Below, in pieces: positions 3,035-36,300 of a stretch of DNA of 64,000 nt. The notes beneath the pieces are model-generated. The model saw only the letters and a program-made list of their open reading frames with translations. It had not been told where the DNA came from and ran no database searches. Every line of letters starts with the position of its first letter. The stretch's first letter is position 1. Both the position numbers and the translations under genes were made by a program. The stretch comes from Planctomycetaceae bacterium (GTDB lineage Bacteria > Planctomycetota > Planctomycetia > Planctomycetales > Planctomycetaceae), in contig JAKFWA010000010.1 in NCBI GenBank assembly GCA_021732995.1, forward strand, positions 1 through 64,000, in the 5' to 3' direction.

Positions 3035-6000
3035 ATGAAGCGAATGGGCCAATCGCTTGTTCTGTGGGCAATGTCTTCATCAGCAAACCGGCAGCGCCGC
3101 AAGCTGATGCGCGCGAATCGCTCCGCTGAGTTGCTCGAAGTTCGAGCCATGCTCGATGCCAGTTCGACGCTGGTTGCGATGGAGCAGCCTGCCGAGGATG
3201 AAGGCCGAACTCTGGAGGTAGAATCGGAAGAGACCGTTGATCCCGTCATCTTCTACACGCTGGGAGGTGCCGCATCTGCCCCGCCGCCCGTTACACAGTT
3301 TGAGTCACGTGAGCAGTTCGGGGAGTATCTGATCGAGCGCGCCCTACAGCGTTACGAGGGCTACTTCGACCAACCTCAGTGGTTCTATCGAGGTCCGATC
3401 TTCGCGCTGGCGGATGGTGGCTTTCAGGCAACGGCGCTGAACGACGCGCGTTCGCTCGACTTCTCGGAAACCAACACGCAAGTGGATGGTGTTGATGAAG
3501 GCGACATCATCGAGTCCGACGGGAATTACTTGTACGTGTTGAATGGGCAGGATCTGCTGATCGTCAAAGCGGTTCCAGCCGGAGATCTGCAACAGACGGC
3601 CCGAGTCAGAATTGATGGCTCACCGGTGGCCGAGTACCTCGACGGAAATCGCCTGACGGTGATCTCGTCCGAATTCGCCTATGCCAATTATTACTCTCTC
3701 CCATTTCGAGGTCGCTTTTATTCGCCGGGATCGAGTTCGACCATCGTCAGTACCTTCGATATCACCGATCGGGCGAACCCCACTCTGGTGAAGCAGGCGA
3801 CGATTGATGGCAGCTATATCGACTCACGCTCTATCAATGGTCAGGTTCACCTCATCACGACGAACGACGTATCGCTGCCCGAACCCGAGTTGGACGGAAC
3901 GACGACGATTGACGTACCGATTTACTACCCGATCGGCATCGCCATCGACGAACCATTCACTAGTTTCAGTGAGGTCGAGGCACCGACCGGCGAGGTGGAC
4001 GCGCCGTTATCAATCATGCCAACTGGGATCGGAACTCCCATTACAGAGACGGTCGAAGTCGAGAAGTATGAATCACGGGAGAGCTATATCGCTCGCATTC
4101 GAGAAACTCTGGATGAACTGATCGACGAGATCGTGCCCAGGTACGAGGTCGTCACATCAGGTGGTCTGGCGGCAGAAGGAGCGATCAGCGAGATCGAATC
4201 TATTTCGCGCATTGCCGATGCGAATTCAGACTCGTTGATGTCGGTGATTACCATCGACACGCGCGATACGCAACCTGGGCTCGTCAGTTCGAGTTCGCTG
4301 TTTGCAAGCTACTCCAACGGCATCTACGCGAATCGCGATCATCTCTATGTGTTCTCTCCCATCTGGGAAGCGGAGCACGCGCAGACTCGAGTTCTGGAAT
4401 TCGCCTGGGCGAACGGTGACCGCGAAATTGAATTGCTCGCCACCGGTGTCATTGATGGCACGTTGCTGAACCAATTCTCGGCCGATGAGTTTGAAGGCAA
4501 ATTGCGAGTTGCAACCACAACATCGTCTTTCGCCAACAACACCTTTACTCAGGCGAATAACCTTGTGGTGCTGGAGAACGTAAATGGCACGCTGACGCAA
4601 GTTGGCGCCGTCGAGAACTTCGCGGCCAACGAGCAAATCTACTCCGTGCGATTCAACGGCGACCAGGCTTTCGTCGTCACCTTCCGGCGAATCGATCCAC
4701 TGTTTGTGTTCGATCTCAGCGATCCGACGGCGCCTGTTATTACCGGCGAACTCGAAGTGCCGGGCTATTCAAGCTATCTGCAATTGATTGATCAGAATCA
4801 CCTGCTTGCAATTGGTCGCAGTACGACAGACGCAGCGACCAAGGTTGCCTTGTACGACGTGAGTGATCCGGCCAATCCGGTCGAGGTTGATGAGGACATT
4901 CTGCCGAGTTGGACATGGTCGATTGCAGAATGGGACCACAAGGCCGTGGGCTACTTCGGAGCGAAACAGACCCTTGCGATTCCCGTCTCGTCTTATGATC
5001 CCAATGCGGGCGGTTCGCGCAATGAACTGTTTGTCTTCAAGGTCGACGTTTCTCAGACGGGTGAGAACGCAATTCGCCAAATTGGTACGGTCACCGACGA
5101 TTCTTACATCGTACGTTCAGCCTACATCGGTGATACCCTCTATACGATTTCGGGGAACTCCGTAATCGCCTCTCAACTGACGCGGCCCTCTCAAATCATT
5201 GACACTTTTGATATTGCTGCCGACTTCGACACGCCCGAAATCGATATCGAGCCAATCTTTACTGAAGTCGACGACGGCGCGAGCGACTGGGATTATACCA
5301 ACGCTCCTGATACGGCCGAAGAAGCAGATGACCTGTTGGCACTCGGGGCGAGGAACTTGCTCACCGGCCAAGTGCGGATCACGCTGTTGCAGTCAGATGG
5401 AGATATCAATGTTTCATTGGCAAACGGATCAGTGATCGCCTCCAGCCAGGGGCACGATACTGAAACCGTTTCCCTCTCAGGAACGGAATCATTGGTCATC
5501 GACGGCACCGAAGCTGCAGATCGTATCAACTTGAACTTCGGCAATCCCGGAACTAACTCGCTGGGTGAAATAGTCGTCAGCGGCAAGCTTGGCAACGACC
5601 GGATCAACATCACGAGCGTTGCGGCAACGTTGAATGGGCTGGTAATGGTCAATGGCGATGAGGGCCACGACACCATCACAGTCGCGCCAACCGTGCGGAC
5701 CACTGCGAAGATCAGCGGCGGATTGGGGCGAGATACGCTTACTGGCGGAGCCGGTCGGGACTGGATTCACGGTGGCCCCAACAATGACGTCATCGAAGGC
5801 GGCGCTGGTGACGATACGCTGAATGGTGGCGGCGGTAGCGACTTCCTGTACGGCCGAAATGGCAGCGATTCGATGATCGGCGGTGGCGGTGAAGATTATC
5901 TCAACGGCGGCAACGGCAACGATACCGTCGATGGCGGTGAAGGAGCCGACAACATTCGGGGCAGCTTCGGCAGCGACTTGCTGAAGGGCGGCAACGGCAA

Positions 6001-6349
6001 CGATTACATCCGCGGCGACGAGGGTGATGACACCATCTTGGGCGGAGCCGGAAACGATCGCCTCGGTGGTGGTGTTGGCAATGATGCGATTGCCGGCGGT
6101 GACGGCGATGACCAACTGTTCGGTGACGATGGCAAGGATTCCTTGCTGGGAGGCGCTGGCAACGATGCTCTGCGTGGCGGCATCGGCAAGGACGTGTGTC
6201 TGGGACAGGATGGCGACGACTTCGTGGATGGCGAGGCAACGGTCGGCGACACCGTTTCAGGCGGCGAAGGGACCGATCTGGTTTTTGGCCGTCAGATCGA
6301 GATCGATGAAGCCTTCATCTTCCGCGCTGCGTGGGTCAACTTGATTTAG
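3035..6349 (+). CDS. Secreted beta-propeller protein with C-terminal RTX calcium-binding repeats
   Basis: 1104-residue surface or secreted protein. The N-terminus is basic and carries SAELLEVRAMLDAS (about 30-43), the LExR-type motif seen near the start of many planctomycete exoproteins. Residues from about 146 (TNTQVDGVDEGDIIESDGNY) match the hallmark of the Beta_propel family of secreted propellers and continue to about 740. Residues about 890-1085 are nonapeptide RTX repeats of GGxGxDxxx type (GGAGDDTLNGGGGSDFL), which bind calcium and usually mark proteins secreted by type I systems. A GGAG-type ribosome site precedes ATG 3035. No transporter gene is adjacent. The role is probably cell-surface adhesion or matrix; the exact function is unknown. 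Confidence 0.82.
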   Translation: MKRMGQSLVLWAMSSSANRQRRKLMRANRSAELLEVRAMLDASSTLVAMEQPAEDEGRTLEVESEETVDPVIFYTLGGAASAPPPVTQFESREQFGEYLIERALQRYEGYFDQPQWFYRGPIFALADGGFQATALNDARSLDFSETNTQVDGVDEGDIIESDGNYLYVLNGQDLLIVKAVPAGDLQQTARVRIDGSPVAEYLDGNRLTVISSEFAYANYYSLPFRGRFYSPGSSSTIVSTFDITDRANPTLVKQATIDGSYIDSRSINGQVHLITTNDVSLPEPELDGTTTIDVPIYYPIGIAIDEPFTSFSEVEAPTGEVDAPLSIMPTGIGTPITETVEVEKYESRESYIARIRETLDELIDEIVPRYEVVTSGGLAAEGAISEIESISRIADANSDSLMSVITIDTRDTQPGLVSSSSLFASYSNGIYANRDHLYVFSPIWEAEHAQTRVLEFAWANGDREIELLATGVIDGTLLNQFSADEFEGKLRVATTTSSFANNTFTQANNLVVLENVNGTLTQVGAVENFAANEQIYSVRFNGDQAFVVTFRRIDPLFVFDLSDPTAPVITGELEVPGYSSYLQLIDQNHLLAIGRSTTDAATKVALYDVSDPANPVEVDEDILPSWTWSIAEWDHKAVGYFGAKQTLAIPVSSYDPNAGGSRNELFVFKVDVSQTGENAIRQIGTVTDDSYIVRSAYIGDTLYTISGNSVIASQLTRPSQIIDTFDIAADFDTPEIDIEPIFTEVDDGASDWDYTNAPDTAEEADDLLALGARNLLTGQVRITLLQSDGDINVSLANGSVIASSQGHDTETVSLSGTESLVIDGTEAADRINLNFGNPGTNSLGEIVVSGKLGNDRINITSVAATLNGLVMVNGDEGHDTITVAPTVRTTAKISGGLGRDTLTGGAGRDWIHGGPNNDVIEGGAGDDTLNGGGGSDFLYGRNGSDSMIGGGGEDYLNGGNGNDTVDGGEGADNIRGSFGSDLLKGGNGNDYIRGDEGDDTILGGAGNDRLGGGVGNDAIAGGDGDDQLFGDDGKDSLLGGAGNDALRGGIGKDVCLGQDGDDFVDGEATVGDTVSGGEGTDLVFGRQIEIDEAFIFRAAWVNLI

Positions 6350-11559: not shown

Positions 11560-13293
11560 ATGTCCGAATTCCCAACTCGCAACGCAGCGATGGATCGCTG
11601 TTCACCGAATTCCACGGCTTCGCCCAAGCTCGGGATCTACATGAGCTTGCTCGTGGCGGCCTCTCTGGCTTCCACCGCGACGGCACAAGAGAACGACGGA
11701 CCGCTCGGCGGACTGCGTTTTCCGCAGATCTTCCGGAAGTCTGAGGCGCAGAACCCGCCAGCCAGTGCGAAGAAGCCGGTCGAAGAAAACCGATTCATTG
11801 CTCGAGCTCGCCAATTGATGGTGGATGCTCGCCGCTTCGAGTCGTTGGGCCAGTACGACGCCGCGTTTGATACGGCGACGAAAGCTCAAAGCGTCTACGA
11901 AGCTTCCATGCGGACGACTAACGCCGAATGGCCGACTCACGAGCAAACTCCAAGCGAGTATATTCGCGATCTGGAAAAGCGCCTGTCGGTCATCCAACGC
12001 ACGCAGACTCAACAGAATGCCGCGCGGACTCCAGGAACTGTGCCGACGAGCCGCGCTCCACAAGGTCCCGTTGGCGTTGCAGCGACGGAGCCACGGGCCA
12101 CGCAGCCACGTGCGACGCAACGGCCGAGCACGACGGCCAATGCTCCGAGCACAATGGCCAACGCACCGGTCGCGAACTTCGAACCGCAACGACCTCAACC
12201 CCAGCGTCCGATCGCTCGTACTGAGGCCGCTCCGACTGAAGCCGCTACGGCCGGTTTCATTGGTCAGACAGGCGGCATTCTCGAGGCGACCAAACGCGGA
12301 CGTCAGCTCTTGGAGACCGCCGAAGCTGCGAACGAGGTTGTGGGAGTCTTCAAAGGCACACAACCGCGTCAGCCCGCGACCGAGCAAACTGCCGAGCATG
12401 AAGCTGCTTCTGAACAACCGGAAGCAACTAAGGCCGAGCGTTCTTTGAACGTCGCTCGATCCGTGCTGGATCGCATCGACAACCTGCAGACGTGGCAGCC
12501 AGTTTCGGGCGAGAAACCAGCGACGCAACCTACTGACGCTGGCACCCACGATTCCTCGGATCCGCCACTGCCAACTGGCAACCACACGGCAGGCGGTAAG
12601 GCTTCGAAGCCTGCGGAACTCCCCGAGCAGATCGACGCCACCTCAGGCATCGCCGACAGCCTTGTCGGACCGATTCCCACTCATATCGAGAAGCACCCGA
12701 CGTCGCAGTCTGGACCATTGGAGATTGGCGGATCGCACGCGGGAACTCCTAAGGAAGCCAAGCACAACTCGGCAAAGCCCTTGCTCGGCTCGGCAAGTGA
12801 CGATCAGCACGGAACAGCGTTGCTGTTGCCGCCGCTGTCCGCAGAACCCGCCAAGCCAACGACAGAAGCCACCGGCGAACGTTCCCTGTGGCTGGTCGGT
12901 ACCGTGCAAACGATTTCGACGTTCCTGGGCGTGTTGTTCGCTGGAATGGTCCTGCTTGCCGTGCGTCAACTGCTTAAGCAGCAGAGCGCTGCTCCGGAAG
13001 CTGTACCTGCTCAACCAGTTCCTCAAGCTACTGCGGTTATCGAAGAGGTTCAGCCCCAACCGATCGCCGCGGCTCCGGAAGCATCAGAGTCGCCCGAAGC
13101 GGCTGAAGAGCCACTGCCTTCACGAGAAGCTGTCTCGCAGAAGCCTTCTCTCCGAGTGGTCAGCGCCGCGAACGACGACGATTCGGTGGCCGACGGATCC
13201 AAGCATGAGGCTGAGGTGGTCAAGAGCGTGTTTGAACAAAACGTGAAGCTGATGGAATCGCTTCACAACCTGTCGGACTCAGCAGCAGCATAA
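11560..13293 (+). CDS. Membrane-anchored protein with one TPR-like helical repeat; possible actin adaptor
   Basis: About 577 residues, not a family I can name. ATG 11560 is chosen because GAGGAA lies 11 bp upstream and a signal peptide-like segment follows (LGIYMSLLVAASLASTATA). Residues about 76-143 form a helical hairpin (ARARQLMVDARRFESLGQYD, then A-rich helix and PSEYIRDLEKRL) that matches the repeats of the giant secretin at 33322. A long Pro/Ala/Thr/Gln-rich linker follows. A transmembrane helix lies at about 443-468 (LVGTVQTISTFLGVLFAGMV), then a roughly 105-residue acidic tail ending in a predicted helix (VVKSVFEQNVKLMESLHNL). The tail should be cytoplasmic. The MamK-like actin gene begins 105 bp downstream, so the tail is a candidate filament contact. 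Confidence 0.72.
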   Translation: MSEFPTRNAAMDRCSPNSTASPKLGIYMSLLVAASLASTATAQENDGPLGGLRFPQIFRKSEAQNPPASAKKPVEENRFIARARQLMVDARRFESLGQYDAAFDTATKAQSVYEASMRTTNAEWPTHEQTPSEYIRDLEKRLSVIQRTQTQQNAARTPGTVPTSRAPQGPVGVAATEPRATQPRATQRPSTTANAPSTMANAPVANFEPQRPQPQRPIARTEAAPTEAATAGFIGQTGGILEATKRGRQLLETAEAANEVVGVFKGTQPRQPATEQTAEHEAASEQPEATKAERSLNVARSVLDRIDNLQTWQPVSGEKPATQPTDAGTHDSSDPPLPTGNHTAGGKASKPAELPEQIDATSGIADSLVGPIPTHIEKHPTSQSGPLEIGGSHAGTPKEAKHNSAKPLLGSASDDQHGTALLLPPLSAEPAKPTTEATGERSLWLVGTVQTISTFLGVLFAGMVLLAVRQLLKQQSAAPEAVPAQPVPQATAVIEEVQPQPIAAAPEASESPEAAEEPLPSREAVSQKPSLRVVSAANDDDSVADGSKHEAEVVKSVFEQNVKLMESLHNLSDSAAA

Positions 13294-13398
13294 GTGGTGC
13301 TGGAGTCGTCTCGCGGGCCATCAATTTCACTAACAAGCTGTTCCCGAAATTCCTGAGTGCGCTCTCGAACGGCAGACGATCAACAGAGGAGTTGAGTT

Positions 13399-14490
13399 GT
13401 GAACCAGGTGGCCACATTCATCGGACTGGACCTCGGCAGTTTCAAGTCTGCAGTTGCAGCGTCCAACGGGCGCCGCACGGCGGTTCCGAGTGTGCTCGGC
13501 TGGCCCAGCAATGAAGAGGCCCGCGAGAAACTCGGTCGCGACTTCGTGTGTGGTGGCGAACTCACCAAACAGGCTGTGCCGCTGGACGTGATCTGGCCCT
13601 TCCGCCGTGGTCTGCAGAAGGTCCTTGATCTGTCTGAGATGAACTTCACGCCCGAGGCCGTTGAGAAGCACCGCGATGCCGCGCGGTTGATTGCCAGGCA
13701 CATCATCTCGCTCACGACTCCGAATCCCGGCAGCACCATCTATGGCATCGTGACCACGCCCGGTCACACCTCTCTGGCTTGCAAACAGGCTCTCTACGAT
13801 GCGGTAAGAGATCACGTTGATGCTGTCATGTTCGTTCCGGAAGCGTTCTGCATCGCGTTCGGAGCCGGTCAGACTGACGACTGTCTGGTGATCGATCTGG
13901 GTGCCGGGAAGATTGATATCTGCCCGCTGACAGATGGCTACCCGGCGGAACATTGCCAGATCACGCTGACTCATGGCTGTGAGCACATCGAGTCGGAACT
14001 GGTGACGCAGATGAAGCTGGCTTTCCCGGACGTGGACTTGCCGCAGAACGCGGCTCGCCAGATCAAGGAGAGCGTCGGATGCCTGCCGAAGCCGGCCGAT
14101 ACGGCGCGAGCCCGGCTGAACTCAGCCACGTCGAGCCAGGAAGTGGATGTGACCGAGCCGTTGCGGATCGCCTGTCGCAAACTGATTCCCACAATCGTGG
14201 GCGCGGTGCGGGAGGTCATTGGCAAGTTTGAACCGACCGCTCAGCGCAGGCTGCTGTCGAACGTGTTGCTGACGGGAGCGGGCAGCCAATTGAAGGGCTT
14301 CCCCGAACTGCTGACGGCGGCCCTGGTGCCCGTCGGCGAGTCCCATATCACGGTGGTCAGCGACCCGGTGTTCGGCGCGGCAACCGGAGCCTTGAAGCTC
14401 AGCATGGCGATGCCCTTGCAGTACTGGGAGCAAGTTCGCGTTCAGCAGACCCTGCACGCTCCGGTTGAGACCGCTCGCCGCGCCGCCTGA
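13399..14490 (+). CDS. MamK/MreB-like bacterial actin
   Basis: 363-residue ATPase of the actin/Hsp70 fold. Phosphate-1 motif FIGLDLGSFKSAVAASNGR (Asp11), followed by VPSVLGWPSNEEAREKLGRD, resembles MamK (…SVVGYPKD…LLGR) more than MreB. Phosphate-2 is LVIDLGAGKIDIC (Asp166), and the adenosine motif is LLTGAGSQLKGFPELL (from 289). The GTG start is supported by AGAGGAG 7 bp upstream. MamK-type actins form filaments that position magnetosomes, and relatives occur in bacteria without magnetosomes. No magnetosome genes are visible here. The upstream single-pass membrane protein is the best partner candidate. PilM- or FtsA-like assignment is less likely because of the MamK-like segment after phosphate-1. 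Confidence 0.78.
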   Translation: MNQVATFIGLDLGSFKSAVAASNGRRTAVPSVLGWPSNEEAREKLGRDFVCGGELTKQAVPLDVIWPFRRGLQKVLDLSEMNFTPEAVEKHRDAARLIARHIISLTTPNPGSTIYGIVTTPGHTSLACKQALYDAVRDHVDAVMFVPEAFCIAFGAGQTDDCLVIDLGAGKIDICPLTDGYPAEHCQITLTHGCEHIESELVTQMKLAFPDVDLPQNAARQIKESVGCLPKPADTARARLNSATSSQEVDVTEPLRIACRKLIPTIVGAVREVIGKFEPTAQRRLLSNVLLTGAGSQLKGFPELLTAALVPVGESHITVVSDPVFGAATGALKLSMAMPLQYWEQVRVQQTLHAPVETARRAA

Positions 14491-15036: not shown

Positions 15037-16173
15037 TTAGGGGCGCAGCACGATGTCGTCGGTTGATTCGTCAGCCCGCGACAGACTCACCATCACCCCG
15101 AACGAAAGAATACTGACGAACAGGCTGGTTCCCCCGTAACTAACTAGTGGATGGGGAACTCCTGTGGTCGGCACCAGTGCCGTGACCACCGCCGCGTTCA
15201 GGGTCGCCTGGATGACCATCTGAGAAATCAACGTCATGCCAGCAATGTAGGCGAAGCAGTTGCGGTGAAGTCTCGCGAACAGCCGCGAACCTGCCCAGAA
15301 GATTCCGCACCATAGAGCTGCGAGTCCCACTGTTCCCGCGAGCCCCAGTTCCTCTCCGACCACCGCGAAGACGAAGTCCGTGTTCGACTCCGGCAGGAAG
15401 CTGAGTTTCTGAGAACCTCGCCCCAGGCCGACACCCCATAGTCCGCCGTGTCCGAGCGTCAGCAGCGATTGTTTCAGTTGCCAGGCGTCGCTGTTACCAA
15501 TGTCGGTCCAAACAGAGACAAAGTCCGTGATGCGTCGCATGCGGTAGCTGTGCGCGATGATGGCGTAGACCACTGCAGGAACAGCCAGCGTCACTCCAAT
15601 CAGGTAGTTGCGGATCGGCCAGCCGCCGTAATAGAGGCTCAATGCCGCAGAACCCGCGACGAAGAGCGAGGTTCCCAGGTCCGGTTCTGTGAGAACCAGC
15701 CCGACGGCGAGAGCCACCGGAATCCCGAACGGAATTGTTCCGCGGAACCACGTCGCCAGAGTCTCTCGCCGATTCACCACCATGCGAGCGATGAGCAGCG
15801 GCATCGCCAGTTTTGCGAGTTCCGAAGGCTGCAACGACCAGCCACCGAAACGCAGCCAGCGGCGCGCGCCTTTAACGGATGTGCCGATTCCCGGAATCAA
15901 CACGGCGATCAGCAGCAGGATAGTCCCGCAGAAGATCCACGGCGCCGCTCGATACCAGAACCGCGCCGGCAACGTCGCGGCGATGGACGCTGCCACGACA
16001 GCGGTCGCCAGGAAGGTGAGGTGTTTGGTGAGATAGACGCGTTCGAAATTGGTCGGCCACGACGTGATGCTGGCGCTATGCACCATCAACACGCCGAATC
16101 CGAGCAGGACGCACGTCAGCGCCCAGAAGAAGCCACGCTCATCGGCAGCGCGGCGTGACTCTGCAAGATTCAT
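15037..16173 (-). CDS. SEDS peptidoglycan polymerase, FtsW/RodA/SpoVE family
   Basis: 378-residue polytopic membrane protein with about ten hydrophobic helices. SEDS signatures are visible: SWTDIG-like loop with LTLGHGGLWGVGLGRGSQKL, then FLPESNTDFVFAVVGEELG, and the terminal PLVSYGGTSLFVSILSFGV. These proteins polymerise lipid II glycan strands together with a class B PBP during division or elongation. FtsW rather than RodA is favoured by the PESNTDFVFAVVGEELG segment, but no mur/fts cluster surrounds it to confirm. Planctomycetes generally lack FtsZ, so an FtsW-like protein here is of interest. The gene lies 157 bp downstream of the antiporter gene on the same strand. Confidence 0.88.
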   Translation of the reverse strand: MNLAESRRAADERGFFWALTCVLLGFGVLMVHSASITSWPTNFERVYLTKHLTFLATAVVAASIAATLPARFWYRAAPWIFCGTILLLIAVLIPGIGTSVKGARRWLRFGGWSLQPSELAKLAMPLLIARMVVNRRETLATWFRGTIPFGIPVALAVGLVLTEPDLGTSLFVAGSAALSLYYGGWPIRNYLIGVTLAVPAVVYAIIAHSYRMRRITDFVSVWTDIGNSDAWQLKQSLLTLGHGGLWGVGLGRGSQKLSFLPESNTDFVFAVVGEELGLAGTVGLAALWCGIFWAGSRLFARLHRNCFAYIAGMTLISQMVIQATLNAAVVTALVPTTGVPHPLVSYGGTSLFVSILSFGVMVSLSRADESTDDIVLRP

Positions 16174-18194: not shown

Positions 18195-19142
18195 TCACAC
18201 TCCGAAGGACGTTCGCAGGACCGCATGATTCACGCTGCCAAAACGGAAGGCGCTACCGGTCTCAACATTGTGGAACACGATCTCAGCCGGACTGAACAGC
18301 AGCGGATCGATCTTGTAGAAGTCGTGATTGGCCTCTTTGAAGATGTCGATGAAGGGTTTGCCGTAGCAGTTGGCGGCGGAGGATGGCACCTTCGGGCCGA
18401 GTTCGCGAATGGACTCGTCGTCACCTGTAACCCACAGTGTCACGCGGCCTCCGTACAGGATCGCGTCGTTCGTGCGGCCGATGCCGGCGAGATCGTCCTT
18501 CGCGACCGGCGGCAGCGGCGCTGAACCGAATCCATGACGGACTCGACGAACATCGAAGCCGAGTTCAAACAGTTTGTGCATCGCCGTTTCGACGGATCGC
18601 GCGACGACCTGAATCGTTCCCGCGACGCTGGCCGTTGGTGCCACCAGCAACGTGACCGAAGCGGGGGACATCTTGCAGCGATCTGCCAGGTAGTCCGCGA
18701 CGGCTTCATCCGGCAGCTTGCCGGTTTCAAGTACACCCACGATGGCGTAGGCGGTCTCGCGATATTCCATCTTCTGAAACAGTTCTTCACGCGCAGCGAC
18801 GGCGCGCATCGGGCCTGATCCCATCGCGAAATACTTGCCAACGCTGATGCGCCAACCGGCGTACTGACTGAATAGGCACGCTGACAACGGCTCATCTGTC
18901 GTGACTTCCACGTGCGGCCAGCCAATGCCGTCGACCAGCCCCTGTGTTACTCGCACGTCAGCTCGGCCCGATAGACACACGCGGGCCAGCAACAGCCCGG
19001 CCTCGATCGATCCTGGCTGCGTCACGCCCGCGTCAATGACTCGCGCCCCGTTGGCCAGTTGAGTCCGTTGGATACCGGGACAGTTGAGATGTTGTTCCAC
19101 AACTGCCTGAGCGGACTGGGTCAAAGAGTTTCGAGTAGCCAT
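18195..19142 (-). CDS. mch: Methenyltetrahydromethanopterin cyclohydrolase
   Basis: About 315 residues with ATG 19142 (MATRNSLTQ), the normal family length; reading frames opening upstream of it would add an unconserved leader. Family segments include ARVCLSGRADV, VTTDEPLSACLFSQYAGWRI, FAMGSGPMRAVAAREELF and the C-terminal NHDFYKIDPLLFSPAEIVFHN. The enzyme interconverts methenyl- and formyl-tetrahydromethanopterin in the C1 transfer pathway, used by methylotrophs and found in planctomycetes. No other C1 genes (fae, mtdB, fhc) are in the window; the neighbours are an antiporter and a DUF885 protein, so the pathway genes are apparently scattered. Confidence 0.9.
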   Translation of the reverse strand: MATRNSLTQSAQAVVEQHLNCPGIQRTQLANGARVIDAGVTQPGSIEAGLLLARVCLSGRADVRVTQGLVDGIGWPHVEVTTDEPLSACLFSQYAGWRISVGKYFAMGSGPMRAVAAREELFQKMEYRETAYAIVGVLETGKLPDEAVADYLADRCKMSPASVTLLVAPTASVAGTIQVVARSVETAMHKLFELGFDVRRVRHGFGSAPLPPVAKDDLAGIGRTNDAILYGGRVTLWVTGDDESIRELGPKVPSSAANCYGKPFIDIFKEANHDFYKIDPLLFSPAEIVFHNVETGSAFRFGSVNHAVLRTSFGV

Positions 19143-19289
19143 AGAAAATGAAGATCTCAGTTGAAGCTCAAGAAGACGACAGCGAGTCCAGGTTTCAAAA
19201 GAATGCCTCGTCCCGAACACGTTGCTCACAGCGGATGCGCATGATATCGAGGCTACACCCAAATGATGACTCACCACTAACGGGCGTCT

Positions 19290-33321: not shown

Positions 33322-36300
33322 TTGCGTAAGCTATCCGGACTCTTCATCGTCGCGGCCGTTACTGGCGCGATCTGGTGGCAATCTCCCGGGCACACCACTA
33401 GGACGCTGTCTGCACAGACGGGCCGTTCCGGCTCTGAGTCAAAGACATCGTCGAACGAGCAGCTCGCTCGTGACCTCATGAAAGACGCACGGCAACGCGC
33501 CTCCAAAGGCGACATTGTCGGTGCCAAACGGAAAGCCACTGAGGCTTCCCGTTATCCAGTGAAATGGAGCAAGGACGAGCTGAGCCCCAGCCAGTTCCTG
33601 GCTCAACTGGATGGACAGGCACCTGCGTCCGGACGTCCGGCGACCATGAACCCCGGTTCGGTTTCGGGACGACCAACGTCTCGCCGTTCCGATGTGGTCA
33701 CCGCCGACGCCGTTGAGGAGCCCGCTCAGATTGAGCGAGTCCAATACGAGGCTCAGCCAGTCGCTGCCGGACCTTACCAACGTCCGCAGGCGACGCAGCC
33801 TCAGTATGGCGCTCAGCCTCAGTACGAGGCCCGGCCGCAATACGGGAATCAACCGCAGCAGCAGTCGCAATACTTGGGGCAGCCCGAGTACTCGACGGCT
33901 CGCTCCAACGCCACCGCGGCCACGTACACGGGACCAAATCCCAACGTGAAGGCCCGCGTGGACGACTATATGAACCGGGCCAACAACGCCTGGCTCGATG
34001 GTGACACCGACGAAGCCGTTCGCTACGCCAGCCTGGCGGCAGTGCTCGGCGAAGGTGTTACGTTCCGAGCTGGCGAAGAAACGCCCGAAGCGTTCATCGC
34101 CAAAGTGCGAACGCGACGCGCTCCAGCTCGGCCTAATGTTGCGGCTCAACCGCAACAGATGCAGCCACAGCCGCAGCCTCAACCTGCTGTGCGAGCGGTG
34201 AATGGTTATGAAGACTTCGGCGGCGCGGAACTCGCTCAGGCGGCCGAACCTCGCAAGCTCAATACGTTCCCGGCGGCCCGTAGTGCTCAAGAAGCGACTC
34301 AGCCGGCGATGCAACCGCAAGCTCCGGCTCCGCGTGCTCTGCCACCCGCGGCTCAACCCGCCCCAAGACCGGCAGCACAACAGCCAGCCGCTCAGCAACC
34401 GGTTGTTCGTCAGCCGATCACTCGCGAGCCCGCGCTCTCGGAAATCGACTTTGATGAGCCGGCGCCAGTGCGGACGCCAACCCGGACAACTCCGGCCGCA
34501 GCACCTGTCGTTGAGAAGCCAGTCGCGAAGCCGCAGCAAGCGAAGCCTGCTCCGATGCCATTGAACTTCGATGACGAAGAACCGGCTCGGCCAGTTAATC
34601 CGCGTCCAGTCGCCCAGCAGCCACAACCGGCTCGAACGTCGACGCTGCCTGCTCCGAAGAAGACAGAGCCCGCAGCTCAGTTCTCGAATTCGAAGCCCAT
34701 CGCCGCTGCAAAGCAGCCTGAGGCGACGAACCCGGCACCGCAAGTTGCCGCTCAAGCTGCGGCAGCGAAGAAATCAGCCTCAACGCTGATGGCCGCCGCG
34801 AAGCAGGAACTGTCGAACGGAAACTTCGATCTGGCTTATGAAAAGGCCGTGCTGGCTAGCCAGATGGATGTCGCCTGGGGCGTCTTTGATGAACGTCCAC
34901 AGCAATTAATGACGCAAATTGAACGCCAGCAGCGCCGAGCTGCCGAAGAGGCCGAGCAATTTGCTCAGGTCGAAGCGGCCAAGGCTGCTGAAGCGGCACA
35001 CGCGGCAGCTTCCAGAGCGACCGCAGCCGTGAAATCTGCCGTGCCCACCCGGTCCGCCGTGGAAGGTGCGCTCGCAGCGTCCTTCAATGATGAAGTCACC
35101 ACCGCGAAGCGCGTGGCCAAGAAGGTTGTCGAGATTCCAGACTCCGCCGAAGAGCACGTTGCTCAGCCGCAATCTCGCGGCCAGATCAGCGAGACTCAAC
35201 ACGCGAAGCAACTGGTTGCCGAAGCCCGTCAACTGCTCCGAGATGGACAGTACGACGAAGCTCGTGCCACAGCCTTGAAAGCACAATCGCTCGGCCAAAG
35301 CTTCGGGATCTTTGATGATCGTCCGGAGACCGTGCTGAAAGATATCGACCGCCGGGCTGACTCTGTCACCTTGACCAAGGCGACCGAACCGCAACCAGCG
35401 GCGCGGAACGTGGCCAAGACCGGACTCGGTCCAGCAACCGATGCACAATCCGATCAGAGCGACCGTCGTGCCCAGGCTCAGAAGCTGCTGGCAGGTGCCA
35501 AGCAGGCCGCTGCAACCGGCGACCTCGACCGCGCTCGTCAGATGGCCGAGCAGGCTCAAGGTCTGAACACGACCTACGACATCTTCGACGAACGTCCCGA
35601 GATCGTGCTGGCGGACATCGAACGCATCGCCAGCCGTAAGCAACCGGGCCGTCAGGCCGGGTCCAACGGGGCGCTCAATCAGGAGACTCCGCGAGCGGCG
35701 CTCACTCAGAAGACGAACCTGATGCCGGATCGCCTGATGCCGGACATGGAAGCACCCACACCGCAGAAGACGGCTGCCAAGCGTCCGTCCTTCGAGGGCA
35801 CCGATACGCCAGCAGTGGCGAAGAGCACTCCCTCAGCGACATCTCGCCAGGCTGCGGCTTTGCTGAATGAAGCCCGAAGCCTGCTGAAGCAGGGCAAGTA
35901 CGAGGAAGCCAAAGCCAAGGCCGAGCAGGCCCAGCAATTGGATGTCAGCTACGATCTCTTCGCCGATCAGCCGCAGATTGTTATGGCTGAGATCGCGAAG
36001 GTTGAGAATCAGAAGATCGCTGGCAACCGCAAGGGCCGCACGGTCCCGACGTTGCCGGATGCGAGTGAAGACCCCGCACCTCGCGGTCAGGTGGCTGGTC
36101 GTGATGCGGAACCGATCTCGGCTCCTGGTGCCGACGATGAACCACGCAGCCCAACCGCGAACTCGCAGCGTGAACAAGCTCGCCAACTGCTGGCACAGGC
36201 TCGTCAGGATCTCGAACAGGGACGTCTGATCGAAGCCCGCCGCAAGGCTGAATACGTCCGCGACATGGAACTGACCTTCGGAACCTTTGACGATCGACCG

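Follow-up and report, generated by a model that had tools for sequence, protein, structure and literature searches.

A MamK-like actin and its membrane partner in a planctomycete: a gene pair with a candidate C-terminal docking motif

The 64,000-nucleotide stretch of DNA analyzed here (the window; positions 1 to 64,000 of contig JAKFWA010000010.1, Planctomycetaceae bacterium assembly GCA_021732995.1) comes from a 9.39-Mb genome and carries a gene for a MamK-like actin preceded by a gene for a single-pass membrane protein. The two probably form a cytoskeletal module, in which the membrane partner docks onto the actin by its C-terminal helix and anchors it to a site on the envelope. The identity of the actin, the gene order, the predicted topology of the partner, the conservation of a short C-terminal motif, and the dependence of this motif on the actin are established by computation. 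An actin with an adaptor is a known kind of system; the partner and the motif of this pair appear to be undescribed. To our knowledge, cell division in planctomycetes proceeds without FtsZ, and little is known of the cytoskeleton of these bacteria. The absence of FtsZ, which an earlier, sequence-only reading of this DNA had assumed for the group, was borne out for the host, whose genome has no match to TIGR00065, a model that is positive in 13 of 14 control genomes.

Gene order and identity of the actin

The partner gene and the actin gene lie in this order on the forward strand with 105 bp between them (Table 1), as had been noted, and a promoter/terminator scan found nothing, with no terminator-like site in the gap. 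Relatives of the actin in genome contigs were not retrieved by a single-sequence search and were found by using an alignment with the MamK of AMB-1. MamK-like actins are present in 9 of 61 genomes of the same family, and wherever the sequence before the actin is available (10 copies in 8 genomes of the family), a partner-type protein is encoded directly upstream, at gaps ranging from -3 to 235 bp; in one further genome of the family, the contig ends. These upstream proteins are homologous or analogous and have the same general build. The adjacency is also kept in most of the Planctomycetota, and this conservation, together with the identity of the actin, supports the earlier proposal of a two-gene module. 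No other gene of the window around the actin is shared in the relatives, which makes the pair look like a module that stands by itself. Membership of the ECF sigma factor gene that lies upstream in the same operon was considered and dropped, as this neighbor is absent beside the actin in every relative. An FtsW/RodA-type gene adjoins the actin on the opposite strand (15037-16173, -), and this adjacency is not kept in the relatives. Elsewhere, the window carries a methenyl-tetrahydromethanopterin cyclohydrolase (MCH) gene (18195-19277, -) and an ORF of 1,104 aa in which a Beta_propel domain is fused to RTX calcium-binding repeats (3035-6349, +).

Table 1 Features of the actin-partner locus and of the secretin gene in the window
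Feature	Position	Strand	Remark
Membrane partner, 577 aa	11560..13293	+	ATG start; signal peptide and one transmembrane helix, predicted N-out/C-in
Partner, signal-peptide-like hydrophobic helix, residues 23-43	11626..11688	+	Ends ...TATAQ; predicted helix, hydropathy
Partner, extracytoplasmic three-helix domain, residues 78-155	11791..12024	+	pLDDT ~97
Partner, transmembrane helix, residues 441-476	12880..12987	+	Followed by R/K (positive inside); model, hydropathy
Partner, candidate docking motif KHEAEVVKSVFEQNVKLMESLHNL, residues 548-571	13201..13272	+	C-terminal amphipathic helix
Partner, C-terminal Ala-Ala	13285..13290	+	
MamK-like actin, 363 aa	13399..14490	+	GTG start behind GAGGAG
Actin, codon of K171 (phosphate-2 loop)	13909..13911	+	Thr in 145/147 relatives
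Actin, C-terminal Ala-Ala	14482..14487	+	
Secretin, 2133 aa	33163..39564	+	PF00263 1e-22; the partner's domain is repeated about seven times in the periplasmic part; possible distant component
Secretin, repeat region	33460-36267		

Both by sequence and by fold, the nearest bacterial actin is MamK. The product, for which an actin fold with a MamK-like N-terminal stretch had been proposed, is a full-length actin-fold protein that matches the NCBIfam MamK model at 2.5e-80 (270 bits, below the curated cut-off of 400 bits); the MamK likeness therefore holds but is not confined to the N terminus, as it spans residues 7 to 347. Scores were lower with BeeR (6e-34, 117.5 bits; below the curated cut-off of 530 bits), MreB (1e-5, 24 bits), FtsA (5e-5, 22.6 bits), PilM (0.03, 13.6 bits), and DnaK (10 bits), with neither FtsA nor PilM reaching the family cut-off, and the grouping with PilM, FtsA, or DnaK that had been named beforehand as evidence against the module was not found. 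A phmmer search of PDB returned MamK as the best sequences (5jyg at 1.5e-53). A Foldseek search with the AlphaFold2 model of the actin (32 input sequences, pLDDT 90.4) returned MamK first (5ljv; E 1.2e-32, TM 0.94, rmsd 2.0), followed by BeeR and then MreB. The window actin is the only MamK-like copy in the host genome, which encodes its own MreB on contig C68 and its own PilM on contig C32, both apart from the actin.

In a 97-row actin tree, MreB split off at an SH-aLRT of 100, and the window actin was placed inside a Planctomycetia clade with Limnoglobus roseus (SH-aLRT, 100); its exact position inside this clade is unsure, as the window actin and the copy of the same genus are on long branches. 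Magnetosome MamK of the alphaproteobacterial type formed its own clade (100), and the MamK of Desulfamplus and Nitrospirota formed another (100). Since the window actin lies apart from both, it is, on its sequence, a MamK-like actin and not a member of the magnetosome MamK. MamK-type actins in planctobacteria have already been mentioned (PMC7203096), and BeeR indicates that MamK relatives also occur outside magnetosomes (PMC11929497). Magnetotactic Planctomycetes have been reported (PMC7602337), which, along with the sequence similarity to MamK, would suit a magnetosome actin of a magnetotactic planctomycete; however, such an origin is scarcely credible given the separate clade and the neighboring genes examined with Pfam, which are ordinary and include no magnetosome gene. 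A search of the whole genome for the MCR domain was empty, as were the control searches. MamK-like actins were also observed in Poseidonia-type marine archaea (L175, L177-L182, L202-L204) and in one bin labelled Methanoperedens (L170), and those of L082, L083, L087, L093, and L099 have conserved '...EAAAA[SN]'-like ends and no recognizable neighboring partner.

The membrane partner and its C-terminal motif

The upstream protein had been described as a membrane protein with an extracytoplasmic helical repeat, one transmembrane helix, and an acidic cytoplasmic tail. The transmembrane helix (residues 454 to 472; wider bounds are given in Table 1) and the acidic tail (18 acidic and 7 basic residues) are both predicted, and the extracytoplasmic region is indeed helical; what had been called a repeat is a single three-helix TPR/MIT-like domain, followed by long, low-complexity, disordered linkers. 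These features predict an N-outside, C-inside topology, and the end of the tail is a confidently predicted helix (residues 541 to 576). Fold searches with the three-helix domain gave weak MIT/TPR-like matches (E 0.06 or worse), on account of which an ESCRT-like reading of the periplasmic domain was rejected. A similarity search with the whole protein recognizes only four of the same-family partners because the linkers diverge. The bulk of the partner is unrecognizable between genera, and the C-terminal amphipathic helix is kept, so that the tail, proposed earlier as filament binding, is the single conserved part of the protein. No curated Pfam or NCBIfam family matched the partner or the motif, and no description of either was found in Pfam, NCBIfam, or the papers searched. 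The Pfam WH2 model has no match in the partner at E values up to 1; the LLxxI...L[KR] pattern of the motif presumably resembles WH2. A second type of partner precedes the actin at L101, L106, L114, L116, L124, and L193, being long and acidic with repeated 'PDDxPWEP' and 'EPPPLxRK' stretches, and some of these planctomycete partners hold the docking motif further inside.

The motif, in its short form K-x-x-[LM][LM]-x-x-I-F-x-x-N-[LV]-x-L-[RQK], usually lies a few residues from the C terminus. The consensus over 92 nonredundant loci is K-[KR]-x-[LM][LM]-x-x-I-F-x-x-N-[LV]-x-L-[RQK]-x-x-L, and its Asn is invariant in all 92. As it was first spotted by eye in the same-family partners, it was tested outside the family. 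With a scoring matrix trained on the 10 same-family partners alone, 60 of the 133 upstream genes at unrelated loci scored higher than 99% of the control ORFs (p 4.5e-37 by the Mann-Whitney test), and a loose regular expression matched 104/145 upstream genes, 17/136 downstream genes, and 232/2347 other ORFs. Across the 9.4-Mb host genome, the motif profile has exactly one match, which is the partner (E 3.2e-8). In a sample of 392 Planctomycetota genomes, 144 (about a third) carry the actin and 94 have a motif match with an E value of at most 0.01; every one of these 94 is actin positive, and none of the 248 actin-less genomes carries the motif, these being raw counts that include shared ancestry. 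When the training genomes were left out, the motif was present in 79 of 129 actin-positive genomes versus 0 of 248 actin-less ones. Among the motif matches, 91 of 124 lie on the strand of the actin and at most 1.5 kb upstream of it (median, 166 bp). At about a third of the nonredundant actin loci, the upstream gene has no motif, which indicates that the actin does not need the motif everywhere. The partners of L043, L044, and L047 have two or more tandem copies, of the GGGLLAGLVRENQALR type.

The presence of the motif only in actin-bearing genomes points to a previously undescribed actin-docking tag, with putative binding. Some partners have a coiled coil in common besides the motif, which would also fit mere cotranscription, that is, a shared operon of proteins that do not interact and a motif that is an oligomerization or membrane-binding helix; however, this is improbable in view of the restriction of the motif to genomes with the actin (94 against 0/248) and the free replacement of the remainder of the partner.

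Outside the Planctomycetota, bins of Desulfamplus, Nitrospirota, Riflebacteria, Omnitrophota, Beggiatoa, and Zetaproteobacteria have a gene that ends in the motif directly before mamK. In four of five nontraining genomes of this kind (Beggiatoa, Zetaproteobacteria, Desulfamplus, and Omnitrophota), this gene is the best motif match genome-wide, as judged by matching contig coordinates. Several of the motif-bearing bins have names like those of the magnetotactic set in PMC7602337, from which we infer that they are magnetotactic; NCBIfam has no name for the motif-bearing protein upstream of mamK in these magnetotactic-type bins. Deep-branching magnetotactic bacteria assemble their chains by means of coiled-coil proteins and have no MamJ (PMC12748827). 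The gene upstream of the actin is mamJ, without the motif, in magnetospirilla; in marine archaea, other, unrelated genes occupy this position, and in a Nitrospirota/Acidobacteriota group it is held by an amidase-type gene. The motif-free upstream gene at L139-L141, L144-L147, L174, and L176 (Nitrospirota, Acidobacteriota, Desulfobulbaceae, and others) has a conserved cell wall amidase pattern, a call that NCBIfam confirmed for L139. Some planctomycete genomes encode further proteins that end in the motif, among them GGDEF proteins (L232:4043-5077, -; L231:9720-10712, +) encoded about 7 kb from a MamK-like actin, with Pfam GGDEF scores of 3.8e-13 and 6.5e-8, respectively, and other proteins of ~270 aa (L230 and L239).

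Proposed docking and the state of the actin

In the proposed mechanism, the MamK-like actin would polymerize or assemble in the cytoplasm, and the partner would cross the inner membrane, its N-terminal domain lying on the periplasmic side. The C-terminal amphipathic helix of the partner (K-x-x-LL-x-x-IF-x-x-N-x-x-L-R type) would dock onto the actin, most likely in a hydrophobic groove of the kind that is bound by ParR and arcadin-2 on theirs; the docked partner would then anchor the actin to a site on the envelope, perhaps a secretin machine. Filament formation, binding, the binding site, and anchoring are what we infer here. The 17-residue C-terminal peptide of arcadin-2 binds a hydrophobic groove of crenactin, as ParR does on its actin (PMC5173319). 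Groove-binding C-terminal helices can also depolymerize actins (PMC5173319), and the tail that bears the motif consists of one short helix, which raises the alternative that the partner controls assembly, its tail capping or sequestering the actin as arcadin-2 does crenactin and its membrane end confining the site. This alternative is unlikely: the partners are equipped with a membrane anchor or a long coiled coil, the motif is present at least twice in some of them, and other proteins are tagged with the same tail, all of which fit tethering better than sequestration.

The pair can be compared with several known systems. As in MamK-MamJ/MamY of the Magnetospirillum magnetoskeleton, a MamK-type actin has its partner gene directly upstream and the logic is that of a filament with an adaptor, but the window actin is in a separate clade and below the NCBIfam MamK cut-off, the genes examined at the position of MamJ have no motif, and no magnetosome genes were seen near the window pair. 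Deep-branching magnetotactic bacteria (Desulfamplus, Nitrospirota, Omnitrophota, and Riflebacteria bins) have the same C-terminal motif just upstream of mamK, although its carrier is a small coiled-coil protein with no transmembrane or periplasmic domain. BeeR of Verrucomicrobiota is likewise a nonmagnetosome MamK relative in nonmagnetotactic bacteria of the PVC group, whereas the BeeR score of the window actin (118 bits) is far below its MamK score (270 bits), and no partner of BeeR is described in PMC11929497. ParM-ParR and crenactin-arcadin-2 are each an actin with an adaptor encoded by a neighboring gene that binds by a C-terminal helix; the window adaptor differs in being membrane anchored, its binding is putative, and the likeness is one without shown sequence homology. 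MreB-RodZ is a bacterial actin tethered by a membrane protein, but the window actin is not MreB and its partner has no helix-turn-helix domain. PilM-PilN-PilQ shares a cytoplasmic actin fold, a short cytoplasmic peptide of a transmembrane protein, and a link to a secretin; in contrast, the window actin is not PilM, its partner's motif is C terminal, and the secretin link comes from a shared domain only.

The window actin is unusual at K171, A149, and A294 and retains E148, D166, and D173, and the copy of the same genus carries E148A, G170S, T171S, and D173N. ATP turnover may be altered in the host genus, as judged from these residues, and K171 and A294 in the phosphate loop of the window actin place ATP-driven polymerization in doubt. 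It is nevertheless rather doubtful that the actin of this genus lacks normal ATP turnover and is a static scaffold or a pseudo-actin like FtsA and PilM: the substitutions in both copies and their long branches favor this, whereas the three retained residues of the window copy, the intact ORF with its confidently predicted actin fold, and the continued conservation of the partner's motif speak against it. In addition, the same-family actins all end in Ala-Ala, as do most of the same-family partners. Among 116 proxy genes in 11 same-family loci, 16 have such ends, and all 16 are actin or partner genes, compared with 5 of 242 genes in a 400-kb sample of the host genome. Ala-Ala ends are known ClpXP degrons, and their presence on both proteins gives joint regulated proteolysis as a lead.

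A periplasmic domain shared with a giant secretin

The periplasmic domain of the partner is homologous to the N-terminal repeats of a giant secretin encoded in the same window (Table 1). A profile of the partner domain against the host genome found the partner first (E 9.9e-28) and the secretin next (7.9e-11), and the domain is nearly confined to these two proteins within the 9.4-Mb genome. Conversely, an HMM built from the secretin repeats alone and run against 1,563 ORFs gave as its best nonself matches seven actin partners and one other envelope protein, with E values of 1.7e-5 for the window partner, 3.9e-10 for the best (L029), and 0.04 for the weakest (L026). The domain, periplasmic in the secretin, is also predicted to face the periplasm in the partner, and this agreement supports the partner's topology. 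The secretin, whose repeats are TPR-like, is an orphan, the neighbors looked at being metabolic or PSCyt2/PSD1 genes and not secretion genes.

This homology suggests a possible coupling of the actin to a machine of the envelope. A link through the partner's periplasmic domain to the giant secretin, of a type II secretion or pilus-type machine, is possible, albeit tentative. The arrangement would be like PilM-PilN-PilQ with a MamK-type actin in place of PilM, and it draws on the shared module, its recovery of the seven actin partners, its near confinement to these proteins, and the agreement of the predicted topologies. However, shared domains may bind a common ligand instead of one another, the module is also present on a further envelope protein (C82, L253), the secretin gene is 19 kb off and outside the operon, the partners of L031 and L032 have no clear domain, and the host genome has a separate PilM.

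The docking module that we prefer adds to the sequence-only reading the short motif and its occurrence in other phyla and on other proteins, the secretin-type periplasmic domain, the Ala-Ala ends, and the changes in the ATPase loop. A broader reading, in which the motif is a general portable tag for MamK-type actins across phyla, from magnetotactic bacteria to nonmagnetic planctomycetes, and in which the actin positions a secretin-linked secretion or pilus machine of the envelope in the Planctomycetia, here in an FtsZ-less host, is offered as speculative. The motif of about 20 residues predicts actin partners from sequence alone, so that the function becomes open to testing. It singles out the membrane partner in this planctomycete and candidate partners elsewhere, including a GGDEF-domain protein, and for deep-branching magnetotactic bacteria it provides a candidate site of MamK binding.
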